A stretch of 43,667 nt of DNA from Aquificaceae bacterium (lineage in GTDB: Bacteria > Aquificota > Aquificia > Aquificales > Aquificaceae), in NCBI GenBank assembly GCA_037481935.1, contig JBBFKQ010000012.1, positions 1-43,667 on the forward strand. Direction: 5' to 3'. The notes under the pieces were generated by a model, which saw only the letters and a program-made list of their open reading frames with translations, did not search any database and was not told where the DNA came from. The translations under genes and the position numbers were made by a program. Below are positions 22,107 to 39,756 of the stretch, in pieces; position 1 is the first letter of the stretch; each line of letters begins with the position of its first letter.

Positions 22107-22134
22107 ATAATATGCTTTAGTGAGGTTTTGTCAA
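22107..22134 (-). promoter_or_regulatory. Promoter of clpB
   Basis: Minus-strand TTGACA (22134-22129), 16-bp spacer, TATTAT (22112-22107), about 30 bp before ATG 22077. The -35 overlaps the stop codon of the upstream gene. No CIRCE element was seen. Confidence 0.65.
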
Positions 22135-23740: not shown

Positions 23741-23985
23741 GGCTCACCCCCAAAGAGGTATCCCTCAAGCTCCACATCCACAGAGTATCCAAGGGCTTCA
23801 ACTTTCTCCTTAACCGCCTGAAGAAGGTAGCCTCCTACGGGACAAAAGGGACTTGTAGGCTTTATCACAACCTTTAATCTATTTTCCCCTATCTGGCTTA
23901 TCTCCCTTACAATGTTCATACTTACAATGTCAAGACCCGTGTGAGGGTCTATGACTTCTCTCAGGGTTTCAAACACCTCCTTCAT
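23737..23985 (-). CDS. DUF59/MIP18-family protein (SufT/PaaD-like)
   Basis: An 82-residue protein with the DUF59 pattern: EVIDPHTGLDIVSMNIVREI, VVIKPTSPFCPVGGYLLQ with the conserved Cys, then a helix and strand. This family assists iron-sulfur cluster assembly or delivery. In an operon predicted to respond to anaerobiosis or NO, it may help repair or build Fe-S proteins damaged by NO; that is inference. It starts 2 bp after the cytochrome gene and overlaps the DUF2249-DUF1858 gene by 4. Confidence 0.8.
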   Translation of the reverse strand: MKEVFETLREVIDPHTGLDIVSMNIVREISQIGENRLKVVIKPTSPFCPVGGYLLQAVKEKVEALGYSVDVELEGYLFGGEP

Positions 23986-23987
23986 GG

Positions 23988-24398: not shown

Positions 24399-24399
24399 C

Positions 24400-24888
24400 T
24401 TACAACCTCCCAATCCTTATTTTCCAGAAGTCTTTTTCGTGTTCTACATACTCCCATCCAACCCTCTTGGGAAAGGTAATAGCCATCTGAAAGTACAGGG
24501 GCAGAGGGTCGTGGTCGTTAATGATTAAAAAGGCCTCTCTTTCCGTCAACTCAGAAAACTTCTTCATAACAAGAGGATGTCTTAAACCGTGTTCAATGGG
24601 CCTGAGGTCTATGGTCTCCTTTTCCAGAAAGTTCTGGCTTCCAAGGGCTACTTCGTAAAGAAGTGATTCACTTTCCGGCATGAAACCAAAAAGCTCAGCC
24701 GTATCCACCAGAAAATAGTATGGCGCCTCAGCCTTTCCAAACCTTTGACCGAGTATGAACCTGCCCGAGCCCTCTGAAAGGATGTATACCCTGACATAAG
24801 CACAGGCTGAAGGCATGAGACCTTCCAGCATTCTTACCTTCACTTCGTCTGTGCCCGCACCAACATCCAAAGTTATTACACCATGCAT
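24400..24888 (-). CDS. DUF2249 domain protein with extra N-terminal domain
   Basis: A 162-residue soluble protein, first in a five-gene operon. The C-terminal half (about 90-160; TIDLRPIEHGLRHPLVMKKF, FLIINDHDPLPLYFQMA, WEYVEHEKDFWKIRIGR) is a clear DUF2249 domain with its DHDP motif. The N-terminal 85 residues (GVITLDVGAGTDEVKVRMLE ... YYFLVDTAELFGFMPESESL) match nothing I recognise; they could be a cupin-like beta domain. The operon faces nosC across an FNR-type box, so expression during denitrification is likely. Confidence 0.75.
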   Translation of the reverse strand: MHGVITLDVGAGTDEVKVRMLEGLMPSACAYVRVYILSEGSGRFILGQRFGKAEAPYYFLVDTAELFGFMPESESLLYEVALGSQNFLEKETIDLRPIEHGLRHPLVMKKFSELTEREAFLIINDHDPLPLYFQMAITFPKRVGWEYVEHEKDFWKIRIGRL

Positions 24889-25046: not shown

Positions 25047-25514
25047 ATGAAAAGGGCGCTTCTGGCACTACCCATTGCAACCTTCATCTTTTCCTGCCAG
25101 CCAAAACCTCCCGAAAAGGCTCAGGAACCTACTAAGCCAGTAGAACAGCCAGCTGTAGTTGAAAAGAAGGAAGAGGCGGTAAGCGATAAGGGCATAGGAC
25201 CAGTAACAGAAGTTCAGCTTGGACCCATAGACCAGACTCTGGTAAAGAAAGGTAAAGAAATCTTTGATTCCAAATGTGCCTCCTGTCACAAACTTGAGGA
25301 GAAATATGTGGGACCCCCGCTTAAGGGTGTAACAAAGAGAAGAAAGCCCGAGTGGATAATGAACATGATACTAAACCCTGCGGAGATGGTCCAGAAGGAC
25401 CCCGTGGCAAGGGGACACCTTGCTGAGTATCCCATACAGATGCCCTTTCAGGATGTTTCAAAGGAAGACGCAAGGGCAATACTTGAGTATCTGAGGAGCG
25501 TTGATGAAAAGTAA
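25047..25514 (+). CDS. nosC: Lipoprotein monoheme cytochrome c of the nos cluster
   Basis: A 155-residue cytochrome. Lipobox signal MKRALLALPIATFIFSC with the Cys at 17, then a Pro/Glu/Lys-rich linker (about 20-60), and a class I cytochrome c domain with CASCHK and a Met-ligand region near QMPFQDVSKEDARAILEYL. It is predicted to be tethered to the periplasmic side of a membrane and to hand electrons to NosZ, encoded 23 bp downstream. It is the first gene after the FNR-type region. The symbol follows use in clade II nos clusters; exact equivalence to NosC1 is inferred. Confidence 0.82.
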   Translation: MKRALLALPIATFIFSCQPKPPEKAQEPTKPVEQPAVVEKKEEAVSDKGIGPVTEVQLGPIDQTLVKKGKEIFDSKCASCHKLEEKYVGPPLKGVTKRRKPEWIMNMILNPAEMVQKDPVARGHLAEYPIQMPFQDVSKEDARAILEYLRSVDEK

Positions 25515-25537
25515 AACCTTATAAAGGAGGTGTTGCC

Positions 25538-27520
25538 ATGCTGGGCAAGAAGAAGTTGATGGTTGGAGGGCTATCAGCCCTCGTAGTGGGTGCCTTGCTG
25601 ACAGGCTGCCCGCCAAAGAAAGAGGCGGTAAAAACAAGCGCTGTAGGCGTAGATGCGGCATCAAAGGTCTATGTGCCACCGGGTAAACAGGACGAGTTCT
25701 ATGTTTTCTTCTCCGGAGGCTTCAACGGTCAAGTAACCGTCTACGGTGCACCTTCAGGCAGGATACTGAAGGTCATAAAGGTTTTCTCTGTTGACCCTGA
25801 AACGGGCTATGGCTTTACACCAGAAACCAGACCCATGCTCATGACATCGCATGGATTTTTACCCTGGGATGATACTCACCACCCATGGCTTTCCCAGACT
25901 AACGGAGAGCACGACGGAAGGTGGCTCTTCATTAACGCCAACAACACTCCGAGGATAGCAAGGATTGACCTCACCACCTTTGAAACTACTGAGATAATTG
26001 AAATACCAAATGTAGCTGGAAACCACCCATCTCCTTACGGAACAGAGAACACAGAATACGTGGTATCAGGTTCAAGGTTTTCTGTGCCAGTGCCGCAGAG
26101 GGACGTTCCCATAGAGTCTTACAAGGAAAATTTCAAAGGTGTTATTAGCTTCATAAAGGCGAACGAACCCGGAAAAATGGATGTTGCCTTTCAGATACTC
26201 ATGCCAGGTTTTAACTATGACCTCGCAAGGTGTGGCAGGGGTCCCTCTCATGGCTGGTGCTTCTTCACCTCCTACAACACAGAGCAGGCCCACACCCTCC
26301 TTGAAGTAAACGCATCAAAGAACGACAAAGACTTTATAGCTGCCGTGAACTGGAAAAGAGCGGAGGAATGCGTGGCTCAGGGCAAGGCTAAGGAAATGCC
26401 AGCCACCTACTATCACAACTACTACGATGAGAAAAAGCACATGGCGGTATCAGAGGTTAAGAAATCTGTCAAGGTGCTGGACCCAAAAGAATGCCCCGGT
26501 GTTGCCTACTTCCTGCCAACTCCCAAATCTCCACACGGCGTTGATGTCTCCGACGATGGTGAATACATAGTGGGCGGTGGGAAACTGGCAACGGTCATAC
26601 CCATTCATTCCTTCTCAAAGATGCTCAAGGCTATAGAACAGAAGGCTTTTGAAAAAGAAATAGATGGCATTCCAGTTCTTAAATACGATGCAGTCCTTCA
26701 CTGCGAGCTTGAAAAGCCCTGCCTTGGACCACTGCATACAGAGTTTGATGGTAAGGGGTTTGGATATACCTCATGCTTTGTCTCCTCTGAAGTGGTAAAG
26801 TTTGACTACAAGGGATGTAAGGTGGTTGATAGGGTCCCCACTTACTATTCTGTGGGACACCTGCTTATACCTGGCGGAGATACCAAAAAGCCCTATGGTA
26901 AGTATCTCATAGCGATGAACAAGATAACCAAAGACAGGCAACTCCCTGTAGGTCCAGAGCTCCTTCAGTCCGCTCAGCTCTACGATATAAGTGGGGAAAA
27001 GATGCAGCTTATCCATGAATTCTTTACCATAGGTGAACCTCACTATGCGCAGGCCATACCTGCAGACAAGATAAAGGACAAAGTTAAGAAGATTTACCCC
27101 CTTGCTGAGAACGAGCACCCCTATGCGGTAAAGGCGGAGAAAGATGCAAGGGTTGAAAGAAAGGGCAACGAAGTCCATGTATACATGACCATGATTAGGT
27201 CTCACTTCGTCCCTGACAACATTGAGGGCGTAAGGGTAGGGGACACAGTCTACTTCCATCTTACCAATCTTGAACAGGACTGGGACATACCTCATGGTTT
27301 TGCGGTTAAGGGTTCAGAGGATGCAGAAATTCTTGTCATGCCCGGTCAGACAAAGACCCTTGTATGGAAACCTAAGGCTCCCGGTGTTTATCCCTTCTAC
27401 TGCACTGACTTCTGCTCCGCACTTCATCAAGAGATGCAGGGCTATATAAGGGTTTCTCCAGCAGGCTCTAATGTGCCTCTCAAATACTACACTGGCACTC
27501 CACCCACTGCACAGAAGTGA
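25538..27520 (+). CDS. nosZ: Nitrous oxide reductase NosZ, clade II type, predicted lipoprotein
   Basis: A 660-residue copper enzyme that reduces N2O to N2. The CuZ propeller has DDTHHPWLSQTNGEHDGRW and further His residues (HPSPYGTENTEY, KSPHGVDVSDDGEYIVGGG, HTEFDGKGFGYTSCF). The C-terminal cupredoxin domain has the CuA ligands C622, C626, H630 and M633 in CTDFCSALHQEM, plus His in IPHGFAV. The signal MLGKKKLMVGGLSALVVGAL ends in a lipobox LTGC (Cys24), not a twin-arginine motif, as expected for Sec-exported clade II enzymes but with lipid anchoring. AAAGGAGGTG precedes the start. Confidence 0.97.
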   Translation: MLGKKKLMVGGLSALVVGALLTGCPPKKEAVKTSAVGVDAASKVYVPPGKQDEFYVFFSGGFNGQVTVYGAPSGRILKVIKVFSVDPETGYGFTPETRPMLMTSHGFLPWDDTHHPWLSQTNGEHDGRWLFINANNTPRIARIDLTTFETTEIIEIPNVAGNHPSPYGTENTEYVVSGSRFSVPVPQRDVPIESYKENFKGVISFIKANEPGKMDVAFQILMPGFNYDLARCGRGPSHGWCFFTSYNTEQAHTLLEVNASKNDKDFIAAVNWKRAEECVAQGKAKEMPATYYHNYYDEKKHMAVSEVKKSVKVLDPKECPGVAYFLPTPKSPHGVDVSDDGEYIVGGGKLATVIPIHSFSKMLKAIEQKAFEKEIDGIPVLKYDAVLHCELEKPCLGPLHTEFDGKGFGYTSCFVSSEVVKFDYKGCKVVDRVPTYYSVGHLLIPGGDTKKPYGKYLIAMNKITKDRQLPVGPELLQSAQLYDISGEKMQLIHEFFTIGEPHYAQAIPADKIKDKVKKIYPLAENEHPYAVKAEKDARVERKGNEVHVYMTMIRSHFVPDNIEGVRVGDTVYFHLTNLEQDWDIPHGFAVKGSEDAEILVMPGQTKTLVWKPKAPGVYPFYCTDFCSALHQEMQGYIRVSPAGSNVPLKYYTGTPPTAQK

Positions 27521-27531
27521 GGAGGTGAGCT

Positions 27532-28134
27532 ATGAACATACTTTCAAGAGGGCTTCTTGCCCTCGCCTCTCTTTTACTTATCTTGACTTACTTCTTCCCA
27601 CTCTGGAAGATAGAACTTATAGCCCCCCAGTATCCAGAGGGGCTGAGGATGTTCATATGGGTAAATAAGATAACCGGTGGAACGGAGTTTGACCTGTATA
27701 ACATAAACCTCCTCAACCACTACATCGGCATGAAACCTATAGAGCCGGAGGCTATACCGGAGCTGAAGATAATGCCCTTCATAGTCGGCTTCCTTATAGC
27801 CTTCGGCCTTCTGTCATCCCTGCTTGGAAAGCGTGTCCTACTCTATGCCTGGGTAATAACCTTTACTCTTCTCGGCATAGCTGGTCTTGCAGACTTCTAC
27901 AGATGGGGCTATGAGTATGGGCACAACCTTGACCCAAACGCTCCCATAAAGATACCCGGCCTTGCCTACCAGCCACCCCTTATAGGAACAAAGCAGCTTC
28001 TTAACATGCTTGCAAGCTCCTATCCAGACATGGGCGGATACATAATGGGGCTTTCCTTAGCCCTTGGCTTTGTTGCCATAATTCTGGATATAAGGCTTTC
28101 AGGAGGCTTGAGAATGGAGGTAAAACCGGCATGA
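27532..28134 (+). CDS. Membrane protein between nosZ and nosL (NosB-like)
   Basis: A 200-residue protein with four to five predicted helices: LLALASLLLILTYFFPLW, IMPFIVGFLIAFGLLSSLLG, VLLYAWVITFTLLGIAGLAD and GGYIMGLSLALGFVAIILD. A periplasmic segment includes WGYEYGHNLDPNAPIKIPG. Clade II nos clusters such as that of Wolinella carry a membrane protein NosB directly after nosZ, needed for N2O respiration by an unknown mechanism; position and topology fit but similarity cannot be scored here. SD GGAGGTG; 4-base overlap with nosL. Confidence 0.6.
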   Translation: MNILSRGLLALASLLLILTYFFPLWKIELIAPQYPEGLRMFIWVNKITGGTEFDLYNINLLNHYIGMKPIEPEAIPELKIMPFIVGFLIAFGLLSSLLGKRVLLYAWVITFTLLGIAGLADFYRWGYEYGHNLDPNAPIKIPGLAYQPPLIGTKQLLNMLASSYPDMGGYIMGLSLALGFVAIILDIRLSGGLRMEVKPA

Positions 28135-28583
28135 TACTCCGGGTGCTATGGGCTTTCCTCCTGCTCCTTTTTCTTTTTTCCTGTAAATCGGATAAGCCAG
28201 AACCCATAAAACTCGGTGAAGATGTATGCGAATACTGTAAGATGGTCATTGCAGACGAGAGGTTTGCAGCGGAAGTGATAACCAAGAAGGGTAAGGTTTA
28301 CAAGTTTGACGCCATAGAGTGCATGGTGGGCTACTTCAACGAAAACGAAGAAGATATAAAGAAGGCCTATGTGGTGAACTTTCTGAACCCAAAGGAGTTT
28401 ATCCCCGCAGAAGAGGCTGTTTATGTAAGAAGCCCGGACATAAGAAGCCCAATGGGTATGAACCTTTCAGCTTACAGGAGCGAGGAGGAAGCTAGGAAGA
28501 TGCTTGAAGGAAAACAAGGAGAGATACTGAGGTGGTCTCCTCTTAGAGAGTTCATAAGAAGGGAGTATAAATTTTCTCACTGA
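28131..28583 (+). CDS. nosL: NosL copper-binding lipoprotein
   Basis: A 150-residue outer or periplasmic lipoprotein that delivers Cu(I) for NosZ maturation. Signal with lipobox LFSC (Cys about 18); the family motif EDVCEYCKMVIADERFAAEV, with Cys and Met copper ligands; then KFDAIECMVGYF and a late Met-rich part SPMGMNLSAY. It overlaps the preceding gene by ATGA and is followed at once by nosD, the usual grouping of copper-delivery factors. Confidence 0.93.
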   Translation: MILRVLWAFLLLLFLFSCKSDKPEPIKLGEDVCEYCKMVIADERFAAEVITKKGKVYKFDAIECMVGYFNENEEDIKKAYVVNFLNPKEFIPAEEAVYVRSPDIRSPMGMNLSAYRSEEEARKMLEGKQGEILRWSPLREFIRREYKFSH

Positions 28584-28584
28584 G

Positions 28585-29775
28585 ATGCTAGGCTTTGTCT
28601 TTTCTGTGATAGTTGTATGTTCTGAGTGTGAGTTTAAGGACCTTCAAAGTGCCATAAATAGTGCAAGGGATTGGGACAGGATAGTTGTAAAGTCTGGAAC
28701 ATACAAGGGACCCGTAACGGTTGACAGAAGGGTTGAACTTATCGGTGAAAGGGAACCCGTCCTTGACGGTGAGGGAAAACATCAGGTGTTGACCATAAGG
28801 GCGGACGATGTAAGGGTGGAGGGGTTTGTAATAAAAAACTCGGGCATGTCCTACAGCGAGGATATAGCTGGGCTGAAGGTTATAAATTCAAGGAATTGTG
28901 TTATAAAAAACAACAGATTTTTAAATAACTTCTTTGCCCTTTACCTTGAAAGGGTCTCGGGCTGTCTCGTGGAAGGTAATAACATAGTGGGCTTTGCAAA
29001 GACGGAGGGGTCTTCGGGCAATGGCATACATGCATGGAGCTCGGAAGGATTGATAATAAGAAAAAACTTTATAAAGGGCCATAGAGACGGCATATACTTT
29101 GAGTTTGTTAAGGATAGCCTTATAGAGGGTAATAGAAGTGAGTATAACCTGAGGTATGGTCTTCACTTTATGTTTTCCAACGATGATGTTTACAGGAATA
29201 ACCACTTTTACAAAAATGGTGCTGGTGTTGCGGTCATGTATTCAAGAAACATAGGTATGGAGGGGAATATATTTGAAAGGAATGAGGGTCTTGCGAATTA
29301 CGGGCTTCTGCTGAAGGACATAACTGACAGTAAGCTCTACAAAAACAAGTTTATGAACAACACACACGGTGCCTACCTTGAAGGTTGTAACAGAACCACC
29401 TTTGAGGAAAACCTTTTTGAAAACAACGGATGGGCAGTCAGGATATACGCCAACAGTGAGGATAACCTATTTAGAAGAAACTCGTTCATAGGCAACGCCT
29501 TTGATGTATCCACCAACACCCTTTCCTACTTCAGGAATACCTTTGAGGGTAATTACTACGACAGGTATGAAGGCTATGACTTGGACAGGGATGGATATGG
29601 CGACCTGCCTTACAGACCTGTATCCTTCATAGCCTTTCTTTTTGAAAAGTATCCCCTGACCCTCATACTGTATGAGAGCTTTCTTGCGCGTCTTCTGGAT
29701 GCTATGGAAAAGCTCATACCTTTGCTTAATCCAGAGGCACTTGTAGATAAAAAACCCCTCATGGTGAAGCCGTGA
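28585..29775 (+). CDS. nosD: NosD periplasmic copper-site maturation protein
   Basis: A 396-residue protein with a short signal-like start (MLGFVFSVIVVCS) and a right-handed parallel beta-helix: repeated 22-25-residue turns such as NSRNCVIKNNRFLNNFFALY, YNLRYGLHFMFSND and ENNGWAVRIYANSEDNLF. NosD works with the ABC transporter NosFY to build the CuZ site, probably as the periplasmic partner. It starts 1 bp after the nosL stop without its own good ribosome site and overlaps nosF by 4 bases. Confidence 0.95.
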   Translation: MLGFVFSVIVVCSECEFKDLQSAINSARDWDRIVVKSGTYKGPVTVDRRVELIGEREPVLDGEGKHQVLTIRADDVRVEGFVIKNSGMSYSEDIAGLKVINSRNCVIKNNRFLNNFFALYLERVSGCLVEGNNIVGFAKTEGSSGNGIHAWSSEGLIIRKNFIKGHRDGIYFEFVKDSLIEGNRSEYNLRYGLHFMFSNDDVYRNNHFYKNGAGVAVMYSRNIGMEGNIFERNEGLANYGLLLKDITDSKLYKNKFMNNTHGAYLEGCNRTTFEENLFENNGWAVRIYANSEDNLFRRNSFIGNAFDVSTNTLSYFRNTFEGNYYDRYEGYDLDRDGYGDLPYRPVSFIAFLFEKYPLTLILYESFLARLLDAMEKLIPLLNPEALVDKKPLMVKP

Positions 29776-30470
29776 TAAAACTTGAGGGTATATATAAGTC
29801 CTTTGGAAAAAGGGTTTTCTTTGACAACTTGAACCTTGAATTTGAGGCTGGCAAGACAACCGCCCTGCTTGGACCAAACGGTTCAGGAAAAACTACCCTT
29901 GTAAAAACCATACTTGGACTGGTCATACCTGAGAGGGGAAGAATCACCTTTGATGGTAAAGAGGTAGGGAGCGATGGCTTTTATAAAAGGCTGATAGGCT
30001 ACATGCCACAAGTTCCAGAATTTCCAGAAAACCTCACACCAAAGGAGATTGTGGCTATGGTGGAGGACCTGAGAGAAGAAAAGGCAAAAAGGCTTGAAGA
30101 AATGCTTCAGCTTCTAAGGCTAGAGGGGGAAATGAACAAAAGGTTTGTAAACCTCTCCGGAGGCACAAAGCAGAAGGTTGGTGCTCTCGTAGCTTTAGCC
30201 TTTGACCCACCCATACTCGTTCTGGATGAACCTCTTGTGGGGCTTGATCCCATAACCGCCTTCAGGCTAAAAAAATTCATACTTGAGGAAAAGCAAAAGG
30301 GTAAAACCATACTTTACATATCCCACATAATGTCAGAGGTTGAAGAGCTCGCAGACCATGTAGTTTTCATCACGGAGGGCAAAATAATCTTTCAGGGCAG
30401 TCTTGAAGAATTGAAAAGCTCCACTGGAAAAGATAGAGTTGAGGAGGCCGTGCTTTGTTTGCTAAGTTGA
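29772..30470 (+). CDS. nosF: NosF ABC transporter ATP-binding protein
   Basis: A 232-residue cytoplasmic ATPase. Walker A GPNGSGKTTLVK (about 34-45), signature LSGGTKQKVGALVALAF, Walker B ILVLDEPLVGLDP and the switch His in YISHIMSEVEELADHV. It powers NosDFY during NosZ copper-centre assembly. Start is GTG at 29772 inside the nosD stop region; the end overlaps nosY by 16 bases. Confidence 0.95.
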   Translation: MIKLEGIYKSFGKRVFFDNLNLEFEAGKTTALLGPNGSGKTTLVKTILGLVIPERGRITFDGKEVGSDGFYKRLIGYMPQVPEFPENLTPKEIVAMVEDLREEKAKRLEEMLQLLRLEGEMNKRFVNLSGGTKQKVGALVALAFDPPILVLDEPLVGLDPITAFRLKKFILEEKQKGKTILYISHIMSEVEELADHVVFITEGKIIFQGSLEELKSSTGKDRVEEAVLCLLS

Positions 30471-31222
30471 TAAAGTATGAGCTTTATGACCTTTTCAAGA
30501 GTAAATGGATTGTAGGCCTATTCCTCTTTTACTTACTCGTGACCTATGTTCTGCTTGAGCTGGGAAGAGACTTTAAAAAGGCACTAATAAGCCACAACAA
30601 CCTTTCTCTCATCACCCTTACCCTTTTTTCCCTGCTTCTATCTACTAACTACCTTTATAACAACAAAAACTTTATAGAATTTGTGCTTACACAACCCGTA
30701 AAAAGAAGCTCCTTATTTGTCTCCCTCGCGGTAAGCCTTAGTATAGCGATTGCAATAGGCTTCTCTCTTGGCTCATTTCTGCCCTTCTACTATCACTTTG
30801 GAATTGTGCCCCTCTACATAAAAACCATAACCTTTAATCTTTTGCTTATACCCCTCTTTGTGCTATCTGGACTGCTGATCGCTATCCTTATAGAAGATAA
30901 ACTCAAAGGACTTGGACTTGTGCTCCTCCTTTGGCTTTTTTCCTCCACCCTTTATGATGGCATAATACTTTACCTTATTCTTATTTTCTCCGATTACCCA
31001 GTTGAGAAAGTTCTTCTTTTCCTAACACTTGCAAACCCCATTGACCTTATAAGACTCGTAGCCCTCATGGAGACAGGTCTTTATGAAGTTATGGGTTTTG
31101 CGGGAAAATGGGTTGCAAAGTATCTCAGAGAACTTTGGTTTCTGCCCGCCCTTCTTTCACTTTTTTACACCTTCATACTGCTATTGCTTGGTCTTTATAC
31201 CTTCAGAAAAAAAGACTTTTAG
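30455..31222 (+). CDS. nosY: NosY ABC transporter permease
   Basis: A 255-residue membrane protein with six predicted helices, beginning MFAKLIKYELYDLFKSKWIV as NosY and other ABC-2 permeases do. The start appears to be TTG at 30455, placed 7 nt after GAGGAGG inside nosF; no ATG fits as well. It forms the membrane channel of NosDFY. The stop is followed by GGAGG for the next cytochrome gene. Confidence 0.9.
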   Translation: MFAKLIKYELYDLFKSKWIVGLFLFYLLVTYVLLELGRDFKKALISHNNLSLITLTLFSLLLSTNYLYNNKNFIEFVLTQPVKRSSLFVSLAVSLSIAIAIGFSLGSFLPFYYHFGIVPLYIKTITFNLLLIPLFVLSGLLIAILIEDKLKGLGLVLLLWLFSSTLYDGIILYLILIFSDYPVEKVLLFLTLANPIDLIRLVALMETGLYEVMGFAGKWVAKYLRELWFLPALLSLFYTFILLLLGLYTFRKKDF

Positions 31223-31232
31223 GAGGTATGCC

Positions 31233-31595
31233 ATGTGGTTTTTTCTCCTGATATTATTGGTTTTCTCCTGTGGAGAGCCTGCAGTTCAAAGAGAAGTAAA
31301 GAAAAAGGAGCCTGAAGCAACAAAAGTTAAAGAGCTCTTTAGGTCAAAAGGCTGTACAGACTGTCACGACAGAAGAGTTCCTCTTGTAGGTCCTCCTTTT
31401 CTGGAAATAGCCAGAAGATACAGAGGACAGAAGGATGCGGAAGATGTTCTTCTGAAAAGCCTGAAGGAAGGTTCCTGCAGAAAATGGAAGGCAAGGTGGG
31501 AATGCATGCCTCCTCAGAGGCTTGAAGAGGCTGAGGCAAGGGCAATGGTAAGATGGATACTCAACCTCACCTCAGAGAAAGAAAGCTTCCAGTAG
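31233..31595 (+). CDS. Second lipoprotein monoheme cytochrome c of the nos cluster
   Basis: A 120-residue cytochrome. ATG 31233 is preferred because GGAGG lies upstream and a lipoprotein signal follows (MWFFLLILLVFSC, Cys13); the open frame runs 50 codons further into nosY. The heme motif is CTDCHD and the distal Met is probably in CMPPQRLEEAEARAMV. An extra Cys pair (C-x9-C around SCRKWKARWEC) may form a disulfide. It corresponds in place to NosC2 of clade II clusters. Its last 29 bases overlap the convergent downstream gene. Confidence 0.82.
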   Translation: MWFFLLILLVFSCGEPAVQREVKKKEPEATKVKELFRSKGCTDCHDRRVPLVGPPFLEIARRYRGQKDAEDVLLKSLKEGSCRKWKARWECMPPQRLEEAEARAMVRWILNLTSEKESFQ

Positions 31596-33507
31596 CCTCA
31601 TCGTAGGTTATGAGAAGGCTTTCTCCCGGCTTTTCAGGGGTTATGAATTCAAATTCCTTTACTTTTTCCTTGTGAGCGGTCTCCTCAAGCCTCAATGTCA
31701 GTTTTTGATTCCCCGCTTTTAAAAAAAGCTCTTCGTAAACGAATATGGAAGCATCTTTTCTTATGCCTCTGGGATTGTAGACCCTTGAGTATATTAGCTC
31801 CTTACCCCTGTAAACCTCTAGCTTTATAGATGACCTCTCCTTCACAATGGCATTCTGAGCCTGCATGTGCCTCAAAGATCCACTCCCGATTCCTTTTGTT
31901 TCCCTAACAGGAGATGACCTGTATTTGAAGCTTATGACCACTGCAGACATGTCTGTGGGGTAAAAGGCAACCCTGTGTGTGGTAAGGGGATAAAAGAGGA
32001 ATACGGGAAGGGTAAGCACAGAAACCGCAAGAGGATAGTTTATCCTGTTCGTGGCTAAAATCTTCACACCCTGTCCTTCCTTTGTAGACTCCATGAACTC
32101 CCTTATCTCCTTCTCTACAGACTTTACATATGGCGCCTCAAGAATCAGCACCCTTCCACCCATCACCTTCTTTTTAAGTATGGGTCTTCTCTTCCTTTCA
32201 TACCTTTCTTCCAGCCATTTGTTTCCCTCCCTGAAATAGCAGTCTTCATACTCGCAGGAGATTATGACAACTCCTTCAACACCCATATCCAGGATTTCTT
32301 CCACATGGTATGCGTTCACGGCACCCACACAGGGAACGGTAAAGACAGCAATACCCTCTTTTTCTGGCGGAACTGCACTGAATGGACATCTAAAGACCGC
32401 ACAAAAGGGCTTTTCTTTCTCTATTTTTTCAATGTATTCATGTATGGGATAGGTTGGTATGTCTATAACAAGGGCACTGCATGAGCCCACACATATACCA
32501 CAGCCTGCGCACTTGACATCGTTCAAAATAGCCTTTTTCTTGCCCTCATAGTCCCTCATGGTTATGGCTTCGTAAGGACAGTCTATGTAGCACTGTTCGC
32601 ACCCAGTACACCTTTCAAAGTCTATGTGTGCCGGTGGGTTCCTTCTTCCCTTTATGAGCCATGGAAAAGCGAAGAGAAAGGTGAAAAAGCCCAGAAATAT
32701 AAGCCAGTTGGCGGACATGGGTATGTATTTAAGAAGGGGGTAACCAAAGAGGTAAAACCAGTCCACACTCATCTCAAAAGGCAACCTGTTCATGTAGGCT
32801 GGTGGGTCGCTCTTTGCAGGAAAAACAACGGAAAGCATTATGAGAAGGACAGTTATGGTTATGTAGAGAAACCTTGGTGGTATAAGTCTTGGTCTGGCGT
32901 TTCTCATAACATGAACCCAGAGGGTAAAGACTATGAGTATGGTAAGGGCTATATGGGCAAAGAGCAGAATTCTGAAAAGCCCGCTGAGATACTTTATATC
33001 GCTTCCAAGGAAGGCGCTCATCAGAGCATCTCCAAAGACTGGCAGGAAGGAGAAGAACTTGGCAGTCAGAAGCCCAGTGAGCTGTGCCCTCTCGTCCCAG
33101 ACCAGTATGTAGCCCGATATTCCGATAGCCAAAAATATAAGAAGAGTGGCAACGCCTGTGACCCACGCAACCCATCGGAACATCCTGAACCTGTCCGTTA
33201 TTATCACATGCACCATATGGGCGAGGGTTGTAAGTATTAGGGCATCAGAAGAATATCTATGTAGTCCCCTCATTATATTTCCCAGAAAGCTTTCGGATAT
33301 TCTTTCCACAGACTGGTAGGAGGTCTGAGGGTCTATGCTGTAAAAGAAAAAGAGATAAACACCTGATATGACATCTATGATTAGAAGGAATATGGCGATA
33401 GCACCAAGATGATAGAGAGGATTTAGCCTTGAAGAAAAGAACCTGCTCATAAGGTAGGAAAACTTCTGAAAGCCTACGTATAATAGCTGTATGCTCGCCA
33501 TCTGCAT
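31567..33507 (-). CDS. Fusion: diheme cytochrome b, two [4Fe-4S] ferredoxin motifs, MvhD-like domain
   Basis: A 646-residue membrane protein. Residues 20-240 form a cytochrome b-like bundle with two His-x13-His pairs (His83/97 and His185/199), the spacing of bc1/b6 diheme proteins. After three more helices come CTGCEQCYIDCP (300-311) and CAGCGICVGSC (333-343). Residues 365-470 resemble the delta subunit of methyl-viologen hydrogenase (VPCVGAVNAYHVEEILDMGV, ISCEYEDCYFREGNKW). A further helix and a beta-rich tail follow. AGGAGG supports ATG 33507; nine more codons exist upstream. It may oxidise quinol or take electrons from a soluble donor for N2O or NO reduction. This is inference from domains and place; NosR, NosG and NosH are absent. 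Confidence 0.85.
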   Translation of the reverse strand: MQMASIQLLYVGFQKFSYLMSRFFSSRLNPLYHLGAIAIFLLIIDVISGVYLFFFYSIDPQTSYQSVERISESFLGNIMRGLHRYSSDALILTTLAHMVHVIITDRFRMFRWVAWVTGVATLLIFLAIGISGYILVWDERAQLTGLLTAKFFSFLPVFGDALMSAFLGSDIKYLSGLFRILLFAHIALTILIVFTLWVHVMRNARPRLIPPRFLYITITVLLIMLSVVFPAKSDPPAYMNRLPFEMSVDWFYLFGYPLLKYIPMSANWLIFLGFFTFLFAFPWLIKGRRNPPAHIDFERCTGCEQCYIDCPYEAITMRDYEGKKKAILNDVKCAGCGICVGSCSALVIDIPTYPIHEYIEKIEKEKPFCAVFRCPFSAVPPEKEGIAVFTVPCVGAVNAYHVEEILDMGVEGVVIISCEYEDCYFREGNKWLEERYERKRRPILKKKVMGGRVLILEAPYVKSVEKEIREFMESTKEGQGVKILATNRINYPLAVSVLTLPVFLFYPLTTHRVAFYPTDMSAVVISFKYRSSPVRETKGIGSGSLRHMQAQNAIVKERSSIKLEVYRGKELIYSRVYNPRGIRKDASIFVYEELFLKAGNQKLTLRLEETAHKEKVKEFEFITPEKPGESLLITYDEATGSFLSLR

Positions 33508-33610
33508 GAAAACCTCCTGTAAGCAGTTACTCACTTAACAATATAATATAAGCCCTTTATTAAAGACTTATGCGTTTTAATTTAAAGTTAAAAGATGATA
33601 AATTTAATTA

Positions 33611-33639: not shown

Positions 33640-33672
33640 ATATAAACAATCACTCACCAAGGAGGTGTAGCC

Positions 33673-33852
33673 ATGGAGGAGAAGGAAAAGAAAACGCCCT
33701 TCCTTCAACTGGTGCTGGATGATTTCATGTTTCTACTTTTTCTAGGGGTCACGATTTATGCAGTCTCCTACCTCATATGGGGGCTTTTGGAGCTTGCGTG
33801 GCTCTCTCCTATACCAGATGAAATCAAACAATCCCTTTTAGGAGGTAAGTGA
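33673..33852 (+). CDS. Small single-helix subunit (CoxIIa-like) of a heme-copper enzyme
   Basis: A 59-residue protein with ATG 33673 seven nt after AAGGAGG. A charged start MEEKEKKTPFLQLVLDD precedes one membrane helix (FMFLLFLGVTIYAVSYLIWG) and a short tail. It lies 1 bp before a CuA-type subunit II gene. B-family (ba3-type) oxidases have a single-helix subunit IIa encoded at this place, so this is the likely equivalent. No catalytic residues are expected. Confidence 0.75.
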   Translation: MEEKEKKTPFLQLVLDDFMFLLFLGVTIYAVSYLIWGLLELAWLSPIPDEIKQSLLGGK

Positions 33853-33853: not shown

Positions 33854-34384
33854 ATGGCACTGCTACCACCAGAAGAAGGATGGTATTTCAAACGGGTGGC
33901 AAAAGATGAAAAGATGTGGATAGCCATAGCCCTTGTGGTTTGCCTGGCCCTCTTTTTCTGGATGATAGTATGGCATGTCTATGGAAAACAGAACCCATCC
34001 TTTACCACCTACAGGACTACTCCCCAGGAGTTTAACGCCCTGACACAGGCCTTCATACAGAAGTATAAGATAGGAGAGGAAAAGGGCATACCTGTGGTGG
34101 AACCCCCACCCAACAGCGATGTTTTTCTTCTGGGTAAGATGTGGGCCTGGGAGCCTATACTTGTGCTTAAAAAGGGTCAGGAATACAGGTTTCACATATC
34201 CTCCCTTGACCTTCTTCATGGCTTTTCCCTGCAGCCTGTAAACATGAACTTTATGGTTTTTCCTGGCTATGACTACGTGCTCACCTTCAGACCCACATCC
34301 ACCGGTGAGTTCTACATAGTCTGCAACGAGTTCTGCGGTATAGGGCATCACATGATGATTGGAAAAATCATAGTGAAGGAGTGA
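33854..34384 (+). CDS. Heme-copper enzyme subunit II with complete CuA site
   Basis: A 176-residue protein with one N-terminal helix (IAIALVVCLALFFWMIVWHV) and a periplasmic cupredoxin domain. CuA ligands are all present: His in LDLLHGFSLQ, then Cys, Cys, His and Met in CNEFCGIGHHMM. It accepts electrons from cytochrome c and passes them to subunit I, whose gene starts 12 bp later after GAGGAGG. Size and the LHGFSLQPVNMN motif match ba3-type subunit II. A CuA subunit also occurs in oxidase-like NO reductases. Confidence 0.9.
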   Translation: MALLPPEEGWYFKRVAKDEKMWIAIALVVCLALFFWMIVWHVYGKQNPSFTTYRTTPQEFNALTQAFIQKYKIGEEKGIPVVEPPPNSDVFLLGKMWAWEPILVLKKGQEYRFHISSLDLLHGFSLQPVNMNFMVFPGYDYVLTFRPTSTGEFYIVCNEFCGIGHHMMIGKIIVKE

Positions 34385-34396: not shown

Positions 34397-36064
34397 ATGT
34401 TTAGAACATGCGATATTACTGGACTTAAAGTTGACCTGAGGGCTGAGAGGCTAATACAGCTGAATGCAGTCATGGCTGTGGTCTCTCTGCTGATTGGAGT
34501 AATAGCTGCGCTACTACTTGTCTTGACAAGGTGGCAGGTTGTGCACCTCCTGCCTGCTGAATGGTATTACAGGGTCCTTACCCTTCACGGTCTGAATGCC
34601 CTGATATTCTGGATTGTCTTTTTTGAGATAGCAGGGCTTTACTTTGGCTCAACGGTTGTTCTCAACTCACGCATGTCTTCACCAAAGTTTGGATGGCTTG
34701 CCCTTACACTTATGGTCCTTGGCTTTTTACTGGTTAACTACACCATACTCACGGGCAATGCGGACGTTTTGATGACATCCTATGCACCCCTTCAGGCACA
34801 TTCTCTGTATTACCTCGGTGTAATCCTCTTTGCAGTTGGAGCCCTTGTGGGGGTTTTCCTCTTCTTTGCAAACCTTCTTATAGCGAGGAAGGAGAGAACC
34901 TACGGAGACTCATTACCACTGTTTACCTTTGGGCTTGTGGCAGCTGCTATAATTGCCACTTTGACCCTTGCAACTGGCGCAGTTATATACATACCCACCC
35001 TGCTGTGGTCTCTCGGAATAATAAAGACCATGGATGCAGGCGTTTACAAACTTGTATGGTGGGGTCTTGGACATTCTTCCCAGCAGATAAATGTGACCGC
35101 TATGATAGCTATATGGTATCTTGGGGCTTTTCTCACAGTTGGTGGAACATCCATAAATGAAAAGGTCAGTAGGCTCGCCTTTGTCTTTTACGTAATAGGC
35201 ATAAATGTTGCATCTGCACACCACCTTCTTGTAGACCCTGGACCAAGCCCGGCATGGAAGGTCTTCAATACGAGTTATGTGATGTATATAGCGGTTCTTG
35301 CCTCCATGATACATGCCTTTGCAGTTCCTTCCGCAGTGGAATCTGCTCAGAGAAGAAGGGGCTTTACCAAAGGTCTCTTTGACTGGCTCAAAAATGCACC
35401 TTGGGGCAATCCAGCCTTCTCTGCAGTGTTTCTTTCCATCATAATCTTTGGCTTTATAGGTGGCGTCACGGGGGTTGTAAACGGTATGGAACAGACCAAC
35501 ATAATAGTTCACAATACGCTTTCCATACCCGGGCACTTTAAGGGAACGGTGGTGGGTGGAACCACACTTGCCTTCATGGGTGCAACCTACTACCTTATAC
35601 CCCTCATATTCAGGAAAAAGATCGCCTTCTTCGGGCTTGCAAAGCTCCAGCCATGGGTATTTGGCGGAGGCATTTCTTTGCTTGCCGTTTCCATGTATAT
35701 ACTTGGAGCTTTTGGAGTTCCAAGGAGACACTATGACATTACCTTTTCTGGTGGACCCTTTACCTACACCTTCAACCCTGCAACGGACTTTTTCTGGGTT
35801 CTTTTTGCCATTGGAGGCATAGTTACGGTCATAGGCGCTCTCATGTGGATACTTATAGTGGTGTTTTCTGTATTCTTTGGACAGTCAGTAAGAGGTCCTC
35901 AGGATATGCAACTGCAGATTGCTTCACCCCCACCTCCTGCGAAGGAACATCATGGTTTTGAGGCACCGGGAACTCTGACCCTCACCCTTCTTTTCATGGG
36001 CGTGTTCCTTATATTCCTCCTGCTCAACTGGGGATGGCTTGCAGCCATGTGGGAGGTAAGATGA
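34397..36064 (+). CDS. Heme-copper catalytic subunit I, B-family-like, without the active-site Tyr; probable NO reductase
   Basis: A 555-residue protein with 12-14 helices, aligning to ba3-type oxidase subunit I. Present: low-spin heme His in LTLHGLNAL; CuB His in GLGHSSQQINV; the CuB pair in ASAHHLLVDPGPSPAWK; high-spin heme His in HNTLSIPGHFKG. Two key changes are visible. The cross-linked Tyr four residues after the first CuB His is Gln, and the second low-spin heme His (PGHFH in ba3) is Lys (PGHFK). Loss of Tyr argues against O2 reduction and for NO reduction, as in known CuA-type NO reductases. Its place between nos and nir genes, with no norB in view, supports this. The exact class cannot be named from sequence alone. 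Confidence 0.82.
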   Translation: MFRTCDITGLKVDLRAERLIQLNAVMAVVSLLIGVIAALLLVLTRWQVVHLLPAEWYYRVLTLHGLNALIFWIVFFEIAGLYFGSTVVLNSRMSSPKFGWLALTLMVLGFLLVNYTILTGNADVLMTSYAPLQAHSLYYLGVILFAVGALVGVFLFFANLLIARKERTYGDSLPLFTFGLVAAAIIATLTLATGAVIYIPTLLWSLGIIKTMDAGVYKLVWWGLGHSSQQINVTAMIAIWYLGAFLTVGGTSINEKVSRLAFVFYVIGINVASAHHLLVDPGPSPAWKVFNTSYVMYIAVLASMIHAFAVPSAVESAQRRRGFTKGLFDWLKNAPWGNPAFSAVFLSIIIFGFIGGVTGVVNGMEQTNIIVHNTLSIPGHFKGTVVGGTTLAFMGATYYLIPLIFRKKIAFFGLAKLQPWVFGGGISLLAVSMYILGAFGVPRRHYDITFSGGPFTYTFNPATDFFWVLFAIGGIVTVIGALMWILIVVFSVFFGQSVRGPQDMQLQIASPPPPAKEHHGFEAPGTLTLTLLFMGVFLIFLLLNWGWLAAMWEVR

Positions 36065-37311
36065 TGTTCTTTTACCTTTCACTGTCCCTCTTTTCCCTTG
36101 TAATGGCCGGTCTCTTTGGTCTACTTATAGCCCTTACCAGAATGCCGGCCGTATCCCTCCTTAAATCCCCTGAGCTCTTCTATCACTTTCTTGTGGGGCA
36201 TGTGACCTTTTCCATCACTCTTTGGCTTATGACCTTTACCCTTGCCTATTGGCACTACAGAGAAGGCAGGAAGGGAAGGGTTGCACCTCCAGCCACCCTA
36301 CTGGGTATGCTCCTCCTTTCCCTTTCCTGCCTTTTACCCTATGGAGAGCCCTATCTTAACAATTATGTACCTGTTGTGGGAAGTCCCATCTTTTACCTGG
36401 GACTTTTCCTCTTCTTCTGCGGTTTTCTTCTTGAAGCTCTGCAAAGGTTGAAATATGCAAAAAGACTGGATGAACTTTATCCTCTCTCCATTCTCTTCGG
36501 CATCCTCACCCTTTTTTCCATACCCTCATCCCTTCTTATAGCCCACCCTGAAGGTGGTATGAAGCTCTTTTTTGAAAGGCTTTTCTGGATACCAGGGCAT
36601 TTCCAGCAGTTCATGTATGCTTCTGTGATGCTTGCGGTATGGCATGAACTTCTTAAAAAAAGCTCTGGTAGTGTGGTGAACAGTCCTCTGTTGAAAGGTG
36701 CCAATCTTCTTCTTTTTATGTCTGCCTTGCCACTGCTTCTGGGCTTTTTTATGGACCCCCTTTCTGAAAACTTCAGAAGGCAGATAGCCCTTTCCTTTGG
36801 TGTTGGGCTTGGTGTGCCTGTGCTTCTTCACAGTTATCATGTGCTCAAAAACATCAGGTTAAGCTGGAACGTGGCTACAATTAGCCTTTTGTTCTCCATG
36901 ACTGTGTATCACGCAGGTGCTCTTATAGCCTACGGCGGTATGCAGAGCGACTTGAGAATCCCAGCCCACTATCATGGCGTTGTCTCAGGTGTAACCATAG
37001 CTTTTATGGGGCTTACTTACTATATGCTTAAAGAAAAGCTTGGCTATGTCTTCTGGGAAAGTGTTGCAAAACTCCAGCCAACTTTCTTCGGTCTTGGAAT
37101 AAACCTTCTCGTTCTTGGCTTTTACCTGGCAGGCAACATGGGTGCACCAAGAAAGACGTACGGATTTGAGTATGTTCAGGATACAAAGGTGATACTTGCT
37201 CTGAATGTTATGGGTTTTGGTGGATTGCTGGCAGTGCTAGGTGGCATTCTCTTCATATCCTACACCACCCTTTCCCTTTTCAGAGGTTACAGGAATGTCA
37301 GTGTTTCTTAG
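36061..37311 (+). CDS. Second heme-copper subunit I-like protein, CuB site lost
   Basis: A 416-residue multi-helix protein homologous to the preceding subunit I: FLVGHVTFSITLWLMTF aligns with the low-spin His helix, WIPGHFQQFMYASVMLAVW with the CuB His helix, and LRIPAHYHGVVSGVTIAFMG with helix X, ending MGAPRKTYGF. The CuB pair HH is replaced (LLLGFFMDP against SAHHLLVDP), while helix X keeps both heme His residues (HYH). It starts by ATGA overlap with subunit I, so the two are translationally coupled. It may be a heme-binding partner or an electron-transfer subunit; a second independent catalytic site is unlikely. Confidence 0.75.
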   Translation: MMFFYLSLSLFSLVMAGLFGLLIALTRMPAVSLLKSPELFYHFLVGHVTFSITLWLMTFTLAYWHYREGRKGRVAPPATLLGMLLLSLSCLLPYGEPYLNNYVPVVGSPIFYLGLFLFFCGFLLEALQRLKYAKRLDELYPLSILFGILTLFSIPSSLLIAHPEGGMKLFFERLFWIPGHFQQFMYASVMLAVWHELLKKSSGSVVNSPLLKGANLLLFMSALPLLLGFFMDPLSENFRRQIALSFGVGLGVPVLLHSYHVLKNIRLSWNVATISLLFSMTVYHAGALIAYGGMQSDLRIPAHYHGVVSGVTIAFMGLTYYMLKEKLGYVFWESVAKLQPTFFGLGINLLVLGFYLAGNMGAPRKTYGFEYVQDTKVILALNVMGFGGLLAVLGGILFISYTTLSLFRGYRNVSVS

Positions 37312-38038
37312 TTTTCTGCTTCTCCTTTTATCTTGGGGCAGTGAACTGCTACCAGATGAGAAGAAAACTATAGGCACATACGTGCCAGATGTGGTTTTGG
37401 AAGACAGCGAGGGAAGGGTCTTTCGCATAAGAGAGCTGAACAGAGTTGTGGTGCTGAACCCCATATACACAAAATGCACATCCGCCTGCCCGCTCATGAC
37501 GCAGGGTCTAAAAAGGGCAATAAAAGACCTTGAAGAGAGCCTCGTAGTCCTTTCCCTGACCTTTGACCCCAGGGATAACCCTGAAGACCTCAGGAGGTTC
37601 AGACAGGCTCACAACCTGCCAGAAAACTGGTATGTGGTAAGGAGTAAAAAGGCAGATAGCCTTTTGCAAGCTATAGGCTACAGATATAGTTATAACGAAA
37701 AGCTCGGGGAGTTTGACCATCCAAACCTCTATGTGGTGCTCACACCCTCCGGAAAAATATCAAGATACCTCTATGGAGTAAACCCAAAACCCAGGGACCT
37801 TGAGCTTGCAGTGCTTGAAGCCAAGAGGGAAGAGGTAAGGCTTAGCCCCATAGAAGGTTTCTGGCTCAGGTGTTTCAGGTATAACCAGGAAAGAGGGGCT
37901 TACGAAATAGACTGGTTTTTTGTCCTCAATGTGGCTGGAGGAATTACTACCTTTACACTAATTCCAGCTCTTGTATGGGGTAGAGACATTTACAGGTTTT
38001 TCAGGTCATTTCCTTATTTTTTCGTGAAAAACTCTTGA
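37295..38038 (+). CDS. SCO1/SenC copper chaperone, membrane-anchored
   Basis: A 247-residue thioredoxin-fold protein. Signal/anchor MSVFLSFLLLLLSWGS; copper motif CTSACPLM (CxxxCP), with the third ligand His in EFDHPNLYVVLTPSG; a C-terminal helix (FFVLNVAGGITTFTLIPALV). SCO proteins metallate CuA sites, fitting the CuA subunit II upstream. ATG 37295 overlaps the previous gene by 17 bases; the open frame extends 18 codons further but without a ribosome site. Confidence 0.9.
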   Translation: MSVFLSFLLLLLSWGSELLPDEKKTIGTYVPDVVLEDSEGRVFRIRELNRVVVLNPIYTKCTSACPLMTQGLKRAIKDLEESLVVLSLTFDPRDNPEDLRRFRQAHNLPENWYVVRSKKADSLLQAIGYRYSYNEKLGEFDHPNLYVVLTPSGKISRYLYGVNPKPRDLELAVLEAKREEVRLSPIEGFWLRCFRYNQERGAYEIDWFFVLNVAGGITTFTLIPALVWGRDIYRFFRSFPYFFVKNS

Positions 38039-38082
38039 CATACCGTAAGTAATCACTTATATTATAAATATGAGTAAAATCA
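38035..38082 (+). promoter_or_regulatory. nirS promoter with downstream FNR-like element
   Basis: TTGACA (38035-38040), 17-bp spacer, TATATT (38058-38063), with the -35 overlapping the SCO stop codon. TGAGTAAAATCA (38071-38082) follows, close in sequence and position to TGATTTAAATCA before nosC. AAGGAGGT then precedes ATG 38101. Confidence 0.65.
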
Positions 38083-38100: not shown

Positions 38101-39756
38101 ATGGGTAAGAAGGTATTGCTGAGCGGTGTGCTGGGGGCAGTAGCCCTCGCAGGCAGTGCAGTAGTCTATGCTCAGAACCAGAAAAAGGAGGAACTTCCTC
38201 CCCCTCCCCCCATAACAAAGGAGGAAATGGAAATAGCCAAGCAGATTTACTTTGACAGGTGTGCTGGATGTCACGGAACGCTCAGAAAAGGTGCAACCGG
38301 ACCAGCCCTTACCCCCGATAAGACACGACAGCTTGGAACTGAAAGCCTGAAGGTCTTCATAACTTATGGAACTCCCGGTGGCATGCCCGACTGGGGAAGA
38401 CAGGGAATACTCAATGAAAAGGAGATAGACATACTGGCGAGGTTTTTACAGCATGACCCACCTGCACCCCCGGAGCTATCCCTTGCAGACCTGAAAAAGA
38501 CATGGAAGGTCTATGTGCCACCTGAAAAAAGACCCAAAAAGCCCGAGCATAACAGAAACTGGCAGAATTTCATGGGTGTAATACTCAGAGACGTGGGTAA
38601 AGTGGCCATAATTGACGGGGATACAAAAGAGCTTGTTAACATAGTGGATACAGGCTTTGCAGTTCACATAATAAGATACTCTGCCTCTGGAAGATACATG
38701 TATACCATAGGAAGGGATGGAAAGGCGACCATGGTAGACCTGTGGATGAAAAAGCCCGACACCATAGCAGAAGTTAAAGCCTGCAATGACGCAAGGTCCA
38801 TAGACTCTTCCAAGTATAAGGGTCCAAAGGGAGACTTTCTTGACAAGCTGGCAATAATAGGGTGCTACTGGCCACCCATGATGGTTATACTGGATGGTCA
38901 GACCCTTGAGCCCCTCAAGCTCATCTCCACAAGCTCCTATACCTACGACACCAACGAGTTTGTGAGAGAGGCGAGGGTTGCTTCCATAGTGGCTTCCCAT
39001 TATGACCCTGAATGGATTGTAAACATAAAAGAAACAGGTCAGATATGGCTCGTGGACTACTCCAACGTAAAGGCTCCGAAGATAACCATGATAGAGGCGG
39101 AGAGGTTCTTGCATGATGGTGGATGGGATGCTTCAAAGAGATACTTCCTTGTAGCTGCCAATTTCAGAAACAAGGTCTCCATGGTGGACACAAAAGAAAA
39201 GAAGCTGGTGGCAAACATAGAGACTGGCAAGATTCCTCATCCGGGCAGGGGTGCCAACTTTGTCCATCCACAGTATGGACCTGTATGGTGCACAGGCCAT
39301 CTGGGTGACAACACGGTAGCCTGCATAGGAACTGACCCTAAAAGGAAAGAATACTTCGCCAAAGTTGTGGCAAAGGCCGAACTTCCGGGTGAAGGCGGTG
39401 GAAACCTCTTTATAAAGACCCATCCAAAATCTGAAAATCTCTGGGTGGACAGACCTCTCAACCCTGACCAGAAGCTACAGAGAAGCGTAACCGTCCTTGA
39501 CAGGAACACCCTAAAGGTAAAAGCTCAGATAGAAATACCCGCAGAGTTTCAGGGAAGGGCAGTCCATCCTGAATACAACAGAGATGGCACCGAGGTATGG
39601 ATTTCTGTATGGGGTAAAAAGAACGAACCAGAAAAGCAGGCAATACTTGTCTATGACGACAAAACCCTAAAACTAAAACATGTCATAAGGGGCAACTGGG
39701 TTGCCACACCGGCGGGCAGGTTCAATGTTTACAACACCATGAAGGATATATACTGA
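38101..39756 (+). CDS. nirS: Cytochrome cd1 nitrite reductase NirS
   Basis: A 551-residue periplasmic enzyme reducing nitrite to NO. Sec signal peptide (MGKKVLLSGVLGAVALAGSA ... VYA), a Pro-rich linker, heme c domain with CAGCH (C54, C57, H58), and an eight-blade d1 propeller from about 150. The proximal d1 His is in TGFAVHIIRYSASGRYMY; the distal active-site His residues are probably those in GKIPHPGRGANFVHPQYG. Length matches the family. It is the first gene of nirS-nirN-nirJ-nirF-nirE with its own promoter. Confidence 0.97.
   Translation: MGKKVLLSGVLGAVALAGSAVVYAQNQKKEELPPPPPITKEEMEIAKQIYFDRCAGCHGTLRKGATGPALTPDKTRQLGTESLKVFITYGTPGGMPDWGRQGILNEKEIDILARFLQHDPPAPPELSLADLKKTWKVYVPPEKRPKKPEHNRNWQNFMGVILRDVGKVAIIDGDTKELVNIVDTGFAVHIIRYSASGRYMYTIGRDGKATMVDLWMKKPDTIAEVKACNDARSIDSSKYKGPKGDFLDKLAIIGCYWPPMMVILDGQTLEPLKLISTSSYTYDTNEFVREARVASIVASHYDPEWIVNIKETGQIWLVDYSNVKAPKITMIEAERFLHDGGWDASKRYFLVAANFRNKVSMVDTKEKKLVANIETGKIPHPGRGANFVHPQYGPVWCTGHLGDNTVACIGTDPKRKEYFAKVVAKAELPGEGGGNLFIKTHPKSENLWVDRPLNPDQKLQRSVTVLDRNTLKVKAQIEIPAEFQGRAVHPEYNRDGTEVWISVWGKKNEPEKQAILVYDDKTLKLKHVIRGNWVATPAGRFNVYNTMKDIY

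Follow-up and report, generated by a model that had tools for sequence, protein, structure and literature searches.

Which electron-transfer reaction is served by a gene joining a cytochrome b, two [4Fe-4S] clusters and an FlpD/MvhD domain in one chain, and with which of its neighbours its product works, is the question raised by positions 31567-33507 of a contig from an Aquificaceae bacterium (assembly GCA_037481935.1, contig JBBFKQ010000012.1; the window analysed is the whole stretch of 43,667 nt, and its own genome is 1.69 Mb and 99.99% complete). An earlier sequence-only reading of this DNA placed the gene between nosC2 and a CuA enzyme; the adjacency holds, and what was left unstated is that the gene is encoded by the minus strand and so runs towards the nos operon (convergent) and away from the CuA gene (divergent). 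The answer that we favour, at a little better than even, is that the fusion protein is a conduit dedicated to the putative nitric oxide (NO) reductase of the eNOR type encoded by the divergent operon, connecting a low-potential carrier on the n-side of the membrane with quinone and/or with eNOR. The grounds are the architecture of the protein, its conserved ligands, its linkage to eNOR in two phyla and in one alphaproteobacterial operon, and a shared palindromic element.

The protein of 646 aa is read from an ATG at 33507, or from an in-frame GTG at 33534, to the stop at 31567; Pfam ranges are numbered on the 655-aa form from the GTG start and ligands on the 646-aa form from the ATG start. Its overall plan was assembled from the open reading frame (ORF), Pfam and NCBIfam profiles, orthologue alignments and fold comparison by Foldseek/VIA with solved structures, and comprises, in order, a b6-like four-helix core, two subunit-IV-like helices, 2[4Fe-4S], the FlpD/MvhD domain of the [2Fe-2S] type, a further hydrophobic helix (the seventh) and, at the C-terminus, a beta-sandwich. 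The b6-type core (32905-33447; Cytochrome_B, PF00033, residues 30-210 of 655, E 8e-18), in the half of the protein whose closest solved relatives are cytochromes b6 6rqf and 7r0w, contains two bis-His heme sites, with the H-x13-H pairs H83/H97 and H185/H199 invariant across the Aquificota and Nitrospirota orthologues; by homology to cytochrome b, the hemes would be held by H83/H185 and H97/H199. The two further helices, E and F, with a Qo-like loop (32656-32874) are covered by the fold matches to bc1 cytochrome b, which reach model residue 285-290. The canonical Qo motif of cytochrome b is PEWY, and in the family alignment the corresponding motif (32752-32763, D249-W250-F) reads xDWF, a few family members having xDWA or DWL, with D249 and W250 kept in all true family members aligned.

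The two ferredoxin motifs that follow (32476-32631; 4Fe-4S dicluster Pfam match at residues 302-353 of 655, E 1e-7) have eight conserved Cys, and the FlpD/MvhD domain (32080-32388; PF02662, residues 394-485 of 655, E 3e-11, 44 bits against a cut-off of 22.3), the sole FlpD match in the genome, has four (C374, C393, C418 and C423) and aligns with the MvhD-type chains 8rvu_F and 9sw2_D (VIA Z 7.9 to 8rvu_F). None of the twelve varies among the orthologues of Aquificota and Nitrospirota, and in the wider family, with the Nitrospirota paralogues and Defluviimonas, the His and Cys ligands are 97-100% conserved, the values of 0.97 stemming from one unrelated Fe-S protein ORF in the alignment (T2_L094_13030). 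The remaining part (31570-32037) is the seventh transmembrane (TM) helix with a p-side beta-sandwich, as modelled by AlphaFold2 with a predicted local distance difference test score (pLDDT) of 84; this domain drew no match from Pfam, FixG_C/CcoG included, with E relaxed to 10, which is weak evidence, and its fold matches (PepT2 ectodomain, Z 9.4; HGSNAT, Z 8.6) were set aside as a lead to function, being those of a common beta-sandwich with no functional hint. Two conserved Cys were observed in the C-terminal domains of the tandem Nitrospirota paralogues described below (L093 7381-12907, L094 94-5608). The FMN_bind and NosR profiles of Pfam and NCBIfam found no match within the fusion protein, and the NapH profile (TIGR02163) reached 22 bits against a cut-off of 213, on the ferredoxin stretch alone. 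The cytochrome b/two [4Fe-4S]/MvhD fusion recognised by the sequence-only reading is therefore real, as the two H-x13-H pairs, the eight ferredoxin Cys and the FlpD score attest, and to the domains then named are now added the helices E and F with their Qo-like loop, the seventh TM helix and the beta-sandwich, which had been overlooked.

Published accounts of eNOR describe a CuA subunit and propose a proton channel. The neighbour that had been called a CuA enzyme does have a CuA subunit, and its identity can be given as a putative eNOR, with nirS beyond it. The plus-strand operon begins with a single-TM ORF of 59 aa (33673-33852), which from its sequence and conservation in 7 genomes is the likely small eNOR subunit (small ORFs likewise precede CuA in Thermus and Thermomicrobium), and continues with the CuA-domain subunit II (33854-34384; Pfam COX2, with an NCBIfam CoxB/NosZ CuA similarity under the cut-off) and the catalytic subunit I (34397-36064). 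In the alignment of the latter to the ba3 oxidase 4g71 and within its family, helix VI reads GHSSQQ against GHPxxY, with Gln where the cross-linked Tyr would stand, and neither His of the HH pair is lost; the cross-linked Tyr is retained in a true O2-reductase homologue elsewhere in the same genome. Such a CuA-type NO reductase, with Gln replacing the active-site Tyr, is the published eNOR signature (PMC8756737), and thus the linked heme-copper enzyme is assigned, putatively and from sequence, to the eNOR type. In helix X of the same subunit (GHFKG), Lys stands at the low-spin heme His position (ba3 H386) in all the aligned eNORs linked to a type-1 fusion, the low-spin heme His being kept in the eNORs of Defluviimonas and in those linked to the Nitrospirota paralogues; His/Lys heme ligation in the type-1-linked enzymes is possible. 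The operon proceeds with a second COX1-like protein (36034-37311; Pfam COX1), which has no HH pair and resembles proteins of 460-485 aa near the Nitrospirota eNOR, with a SCO-family copper chaperone (37241-38038; Pfam) and with a nirS-like gene for a cytochrome cd1-type nitrite reductase (38101-39756), assigned by context from its cytochrome c plus propeller architecture and its conserved order after eNOR. Heme-d1-type genes accompany it on the eNOR side of the window.

The association of the fusion with eNOR was followed in 64 Aquificaceae and 246 Nitrospirota genomes. In Aquificaceae, the fusion and an eNOR of the window type (73-95% identity) are confined to the identical 21 genomes (Fisher 2e-17, a value which, like the co-occurrence tests in general, ignores phylogeny), and in each of the 20 loci whose neighbourhood is intact the two genes stand next to each other in divergent orientation. 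Among the Nitrospirota, 16 genomes have both, two the fusion only, two eNOR only and 226 neither; full orthologues are divergent from a cytochrome c/CuA/eNOR/SCO cluster in three loci (L068, L089, L091) and lie a few genes off in a fourth (L090), the two genes being on separate contigs in Ca. Magnetobacterium casense. In several Nitrospirota, two tandem fusions of about 700 aa flank a gene of about 435 aa for a NuoF-like protein with FMN (flavin mononucleotide), SLBB and 4Fe-4S domains, near eNOR subunit I, a COX1-like protein, cyoE and SCO; this protein scores under the NuoF equivalog cut-off, and its nearest solved relatives are HydB subunits of bifurcating hydrogenases (E 5e-116), slightly ahead of complex I NuoF. 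On a Defluviimonas plasmid a single run comprises CuA, eNOR subunit I, cyoE, SCO, a shorter fusion, a 172-aa protein and hemerythrin, the fusion being without the C-terminal part, with which the separate 172-aa protein (P0002) aligns. In a third genus of Aquificaceae, a same-strand hemerythrin gene follows the fusion in 12 loci, and after it a protein with a sub-threshold NnrS match faces an Rrf2-type regulator gene. The search of viral contigs for relatives of the fusion found none, and an apparent carrier labelled 'Bathyarchaeota' (L055) was discarded, since its contig reads as one from Aquificaceae: the order of its nos genes is that of Aquificaceae, and the remainder of the genome contains no eNOR. 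It is likely a binning contamination.

The fusion and eNOR genes also share a palindromic element of the approximate form GTAAGT-N4-ACTTAC, with an Rrf2-type protein as candidate regulator, present at both ends of their intergenic region in seven genomes: a putative operator, GTAAGCAGTTACTCAC, on the fusion side (33519-33534) and an operator-like site on the eNOR side (33642-33657). The top match in the window to the position weight matrix (PWM) of this element is a held-out copy upstream of nirS (38045-38060), absent from the training set and present also in five relatives with long contigs; the copies at the fusion, eNOR and nirS are strong, and the site before nos is weak. With a loose threshold the PWM counts were no higher than those of shuffles (5 versus 4.9), and what speaks for an operator is accordingly the sites that score highest, are conserved and stand in the right places. 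Under a stricter pattern there were 6 matches in the 1.69-Mb genome, two of them at this locus, against 1 for the reversed-pattern control; of the further matches, one precedes a CopD-like gene and another, at C4:67900, a gene for a membrane protein weakly related to that encoded at 22131-23264 of the window. The latter stands in a minus-strand group (22131-24888) with DUF1858/DUF2249 and cytochrome c'-like neighbours, possibly an NO-response cluster.

Taken as a whole, the fusion protein probably passes electrons between carriers of the cytoplasm and the respiration of NO; we infer the route that the electrons take, their direction, the partner and the topology. From the established topology of cytochrome b, the ferredoxin and FlpD parts would be cytoplasmic and the C-terminal domain periplasmic. 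The n-side clusters and the b hemes would then form one chain across the membrane, through which a cytoplasmic carrier could exchange electrons with a quinone site and/or with eNOR, and the beta-sandwich on the seventh helix would face the p-side, as does the CuA domain of eNOR. In Nitrospirota the carrier may be NAD(H) (nicotinamide adenine dinucleotide), reached by way of the NuoF-like subunit, and in Aquificaceae ferredoxin or a partner of FlpD; the NuoF-like neighbour is what points most clearly to NAD(H) as the partner on the n-side. The suggestion of the sequence-only reading that the protein links the quinone pool to soluble carriers of low potential is plausible in the light of the tandem Nitrospirota paralogues flanking this NADH/FMN subunit. 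Electrons could run from NADH or ferredoxin through the b hemes to quinone or eNOR, in the service of NO removal, or, in the opposite direction, quinol could be split between eNOR and NAD+/ferredoxin.

This last direction amounts to quinol bifurcation, where the Qo-like site on the p-side would oxidise quinol, sending one electron by CuA or a cytochrome c to eNOR and NO and the other through both b hemes and the ferredoxin clusters to FlpD and on to NAD+ or ferredoxin, so that NO reduction pays for the reductant. We give it a low but appreciable probability. It is favoured by the retention of helices E and F and their loop, where no true family member lacks D249 or W250, by the NuoF-like subunit beside the Nitrospirota pair with its closeness to HydB, by the published proposal on Rieske/cytochrome b complexes of anammox bacteria that contain NAD(P) reductase subunits (PMC12954380), and by the correlation of the second Qo residue with both the type of quinone and the potential of the cofactors (PMC9162462). 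However, the Glu of the Qo motif is replaced by Asp and its Pro is lost, NuoF relatives usually oxidise NADH, and no Rieske protein was recognised on inspecting the ORFs of the window and of the neighbourhoods, where no dedicated Rieske profile search was made; the high-potential acceptor is hypothetical. The more specific form of the idea, a Rieske-free bifurcating cytochrome b that delivers to NO via CuA and to NAD+ through the NuoF-like protein in Nitrospirota or to ferredoxin in Aquificaceae, has a similarly low probability. CcoG, a copper reductase that serves the cbb3 oxidase, combines TM helices, two [4Fe-4S] clusters and a p-side Ig-like domain, and its plan resembles that of the fusion. 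An assembly or repair factor for eNOR may be envisaged by this likeness, in which cytoplasmic electrons would reduce p-side copper, heme or thiols and the TM-anchored beta-sandwich of the AlphaFold2 model would dock on the CuA subunit, with SCO and cyoE in the same loci also speaking for it. CcoG, however, lacks a cytochrome b, an FlpD and a NuoF partner, the C-terminal domain of the fusion is without a Pfam match even at the loosest E value applied, and the Qo-like loop and NuoF linkage better fit a catalytic respiratory role; we give an assembly role a low probability, slightly under that of bifurcation. Several observations weigh nevertheless against the favoured reading of an eNOR-dedicated conduit. 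The presence of SCO and cyoE in the loci means that co-occurrence fits an electron donor and an assembly factor alike; the eNOR loci of Thermus and Thermomicrobium have no fusion nearby, and eNOR consequently has no general need of it; the fusion and eNOR sit on different contigs in one genome (G137); the AlphaFold model of the whole fusion has a low-confidence pLDDT of 63; and a dedicated NuoF partner in Aquificaceae was rejected, nearly all genomes with a match carrying one NuoF-type gene, presumably that of complex I.

The remaining explanation, advanced by the sequence-only reading as the missing donor module for NosZ, would make the fusion a substitute for NosR or NosGH. The fusion adjoins the nos operon in the window and in six relatives. 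This operon (25047-31595, plus strand, from profiles) consists of genes for a cytochrome c, a Sec-type nosZ (25538-27520; NosZ, TIGR04246, 963 bits, which is over the cut-off), nosB-like, nosL-like, nosD, nosF, nosY and a second cytochrome c, the last of which is overlapped by the 3' end of the converging fusion gene by 29 bp. The reported lack of NosR, NosG and NosH is borne out for NosR, with no match over the cut-off in the genome, and for NosG/NapG (TIGR00397), with no match at all, and must be qualified for NosH by a sub-cut-off NapH/NosH-like polyferredoxin at 4865-6274 of the window. The fusion is nevertheless on the opposite strand, its distribution follows eNOR and not nosZ, and the site before nos is weak where those at the fusion, eNOR and nirS are strong. 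A recount which takes in fragments gives, for the 21 fusion-bearing Aquificaceae, 12 with a clade II nosZ (three as fragments or on a broken contig), three with a nosZ homologue under the clade II cut-off and six without nosZ, the near-complete G009 (one contig, 99% complete) and G024 (99%) having no NosZ; in G010 about 62 kb separate nosZ and the fusion, and four Aquificaceae genomes have nosZ and no fusion. In G008 the fusion coexists with a clade I NosZ of the twin-arginine translocation (TAT) type (816 bits), beside which lies a NosR-like gene that the NosR model matches with its N-terminal half, and hence is not a NosR substitute there. By strand, co-occurrence and this coexistence the replacement of NosR/NosGH was rejected; we hold it to be very improbable, and a donor role of the fusion towards NosZ unlikely. 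As to the two findings that the earlier reading had itself named against its proposal, the fusion is indeed unlinked to nos in some relatives, while nosGH or nosR were not found elsewhere in the genome.

Beside the nos question, the polyferredoxin belongs to a minus-strand group (4865-8424), in which it has a Yip1-like tail and lies near a TonB-dependent receptor and ExbB/ExbD/TonB-like genes, possibly for metal uptake linked to nos. At locus L051 (1875-3653, minus strand) of a fusion-bearing Aquificaceae genome, the NosZ is of the TAT type (clade I) and is accompanied by a NosR-like gene, the relatives having the Sec type. A spurious ORF of the window (10021-10461) has evenly spaced VAIPHSGLKT repeats, which suggests a CRISPR (clustered regularly interspaced short palindromic repeats) array.

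The domains are thus known ones, and it is their combination and linkage that were not found described: in the literature covered, which did not include the main eNOR study, there was no account of eNOR accessory genes or of the fusion protein. One specific redox protein is tied to eNOR in two phyla and, in split form, in an alphaproteobacterium, and may be used as a marker for an eNOR sub-lineage. This raises the question of whether NO reduction consumes NADH or ferredoxin or drives their formation; were bifurcation true, low-potential reductant for autotrophy would come straight from denitrification. A cytochrome b with a Qo-like loop that is wired to NuoF/FlpD, and not to the usual Qi-side quinone, would also bear on how bifurcation in the Rieske/cytochrome b family may be redirected.

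Among the known systems, the best sequence matches of the N-terminal half are cytochrome b6 with subunit IV and the ExtP/ExtQ proteins of selenite/tellurite operons, the score being 101 of 290 bits for ExtP, far under the cut-off; unlike the b6/subunit IV pair, the fusion keeps two subunit-IV helices only and adds n-side and p-side domains. With MvhD/FlpD/VhuD of the Hdr complexes it shares PF02662, the fold (8rvu_F, 5odc_D) and the conserved Cys, differing in that its FlpD is membrane-fused; no HdrA or [NiFe] hydrogenase was noticed among the neighbouring ORFs of the inspected loci, where no genome-wide profile search was made. CcoG is similar in its TM helices, two [4Fe-4S] clusters and C-terminal p-side beta domain, but it has neither cytochrome b nor FlpD, and the C-terminal domain of the fusion is without detectable homology to it. 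The linked operon shares the CuA subunit and the Gln signature with eNOR (PMC8756737), from which it is set apart by the Lys at the low-spin heme His position in the type-1-linked enzymes and by the fusion itself, absent from the Thermus and Thermomicrobium loci. As to membership of the Rieske/cytochrome b family, the four-helix cytochrome b with two H-x13-H pairs is present, and helices E and F match bc1 cytochrome b with xDWF/xDWA instead of PEWY. Within that family, the anammox complexes (Kustd1480-1485 and Kuste4569-4574), for which quinol bifurcation to NAD(P)+ was proposed (PMC12954380), have in common with the fusion the b6-like and subunit-IV-like helices, n-side Fe-S/NAD(P) modules and a place in nitrogen-oxide metabolism. 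However, the type-1 fusion has no linked NAD(P) subunit, no multiheme cytochrome c was seen in the fusion loci, and the fusion carries FlpD and two ferredoxin clusters in the cytochrome b chain itself, with eNOR as the partner.

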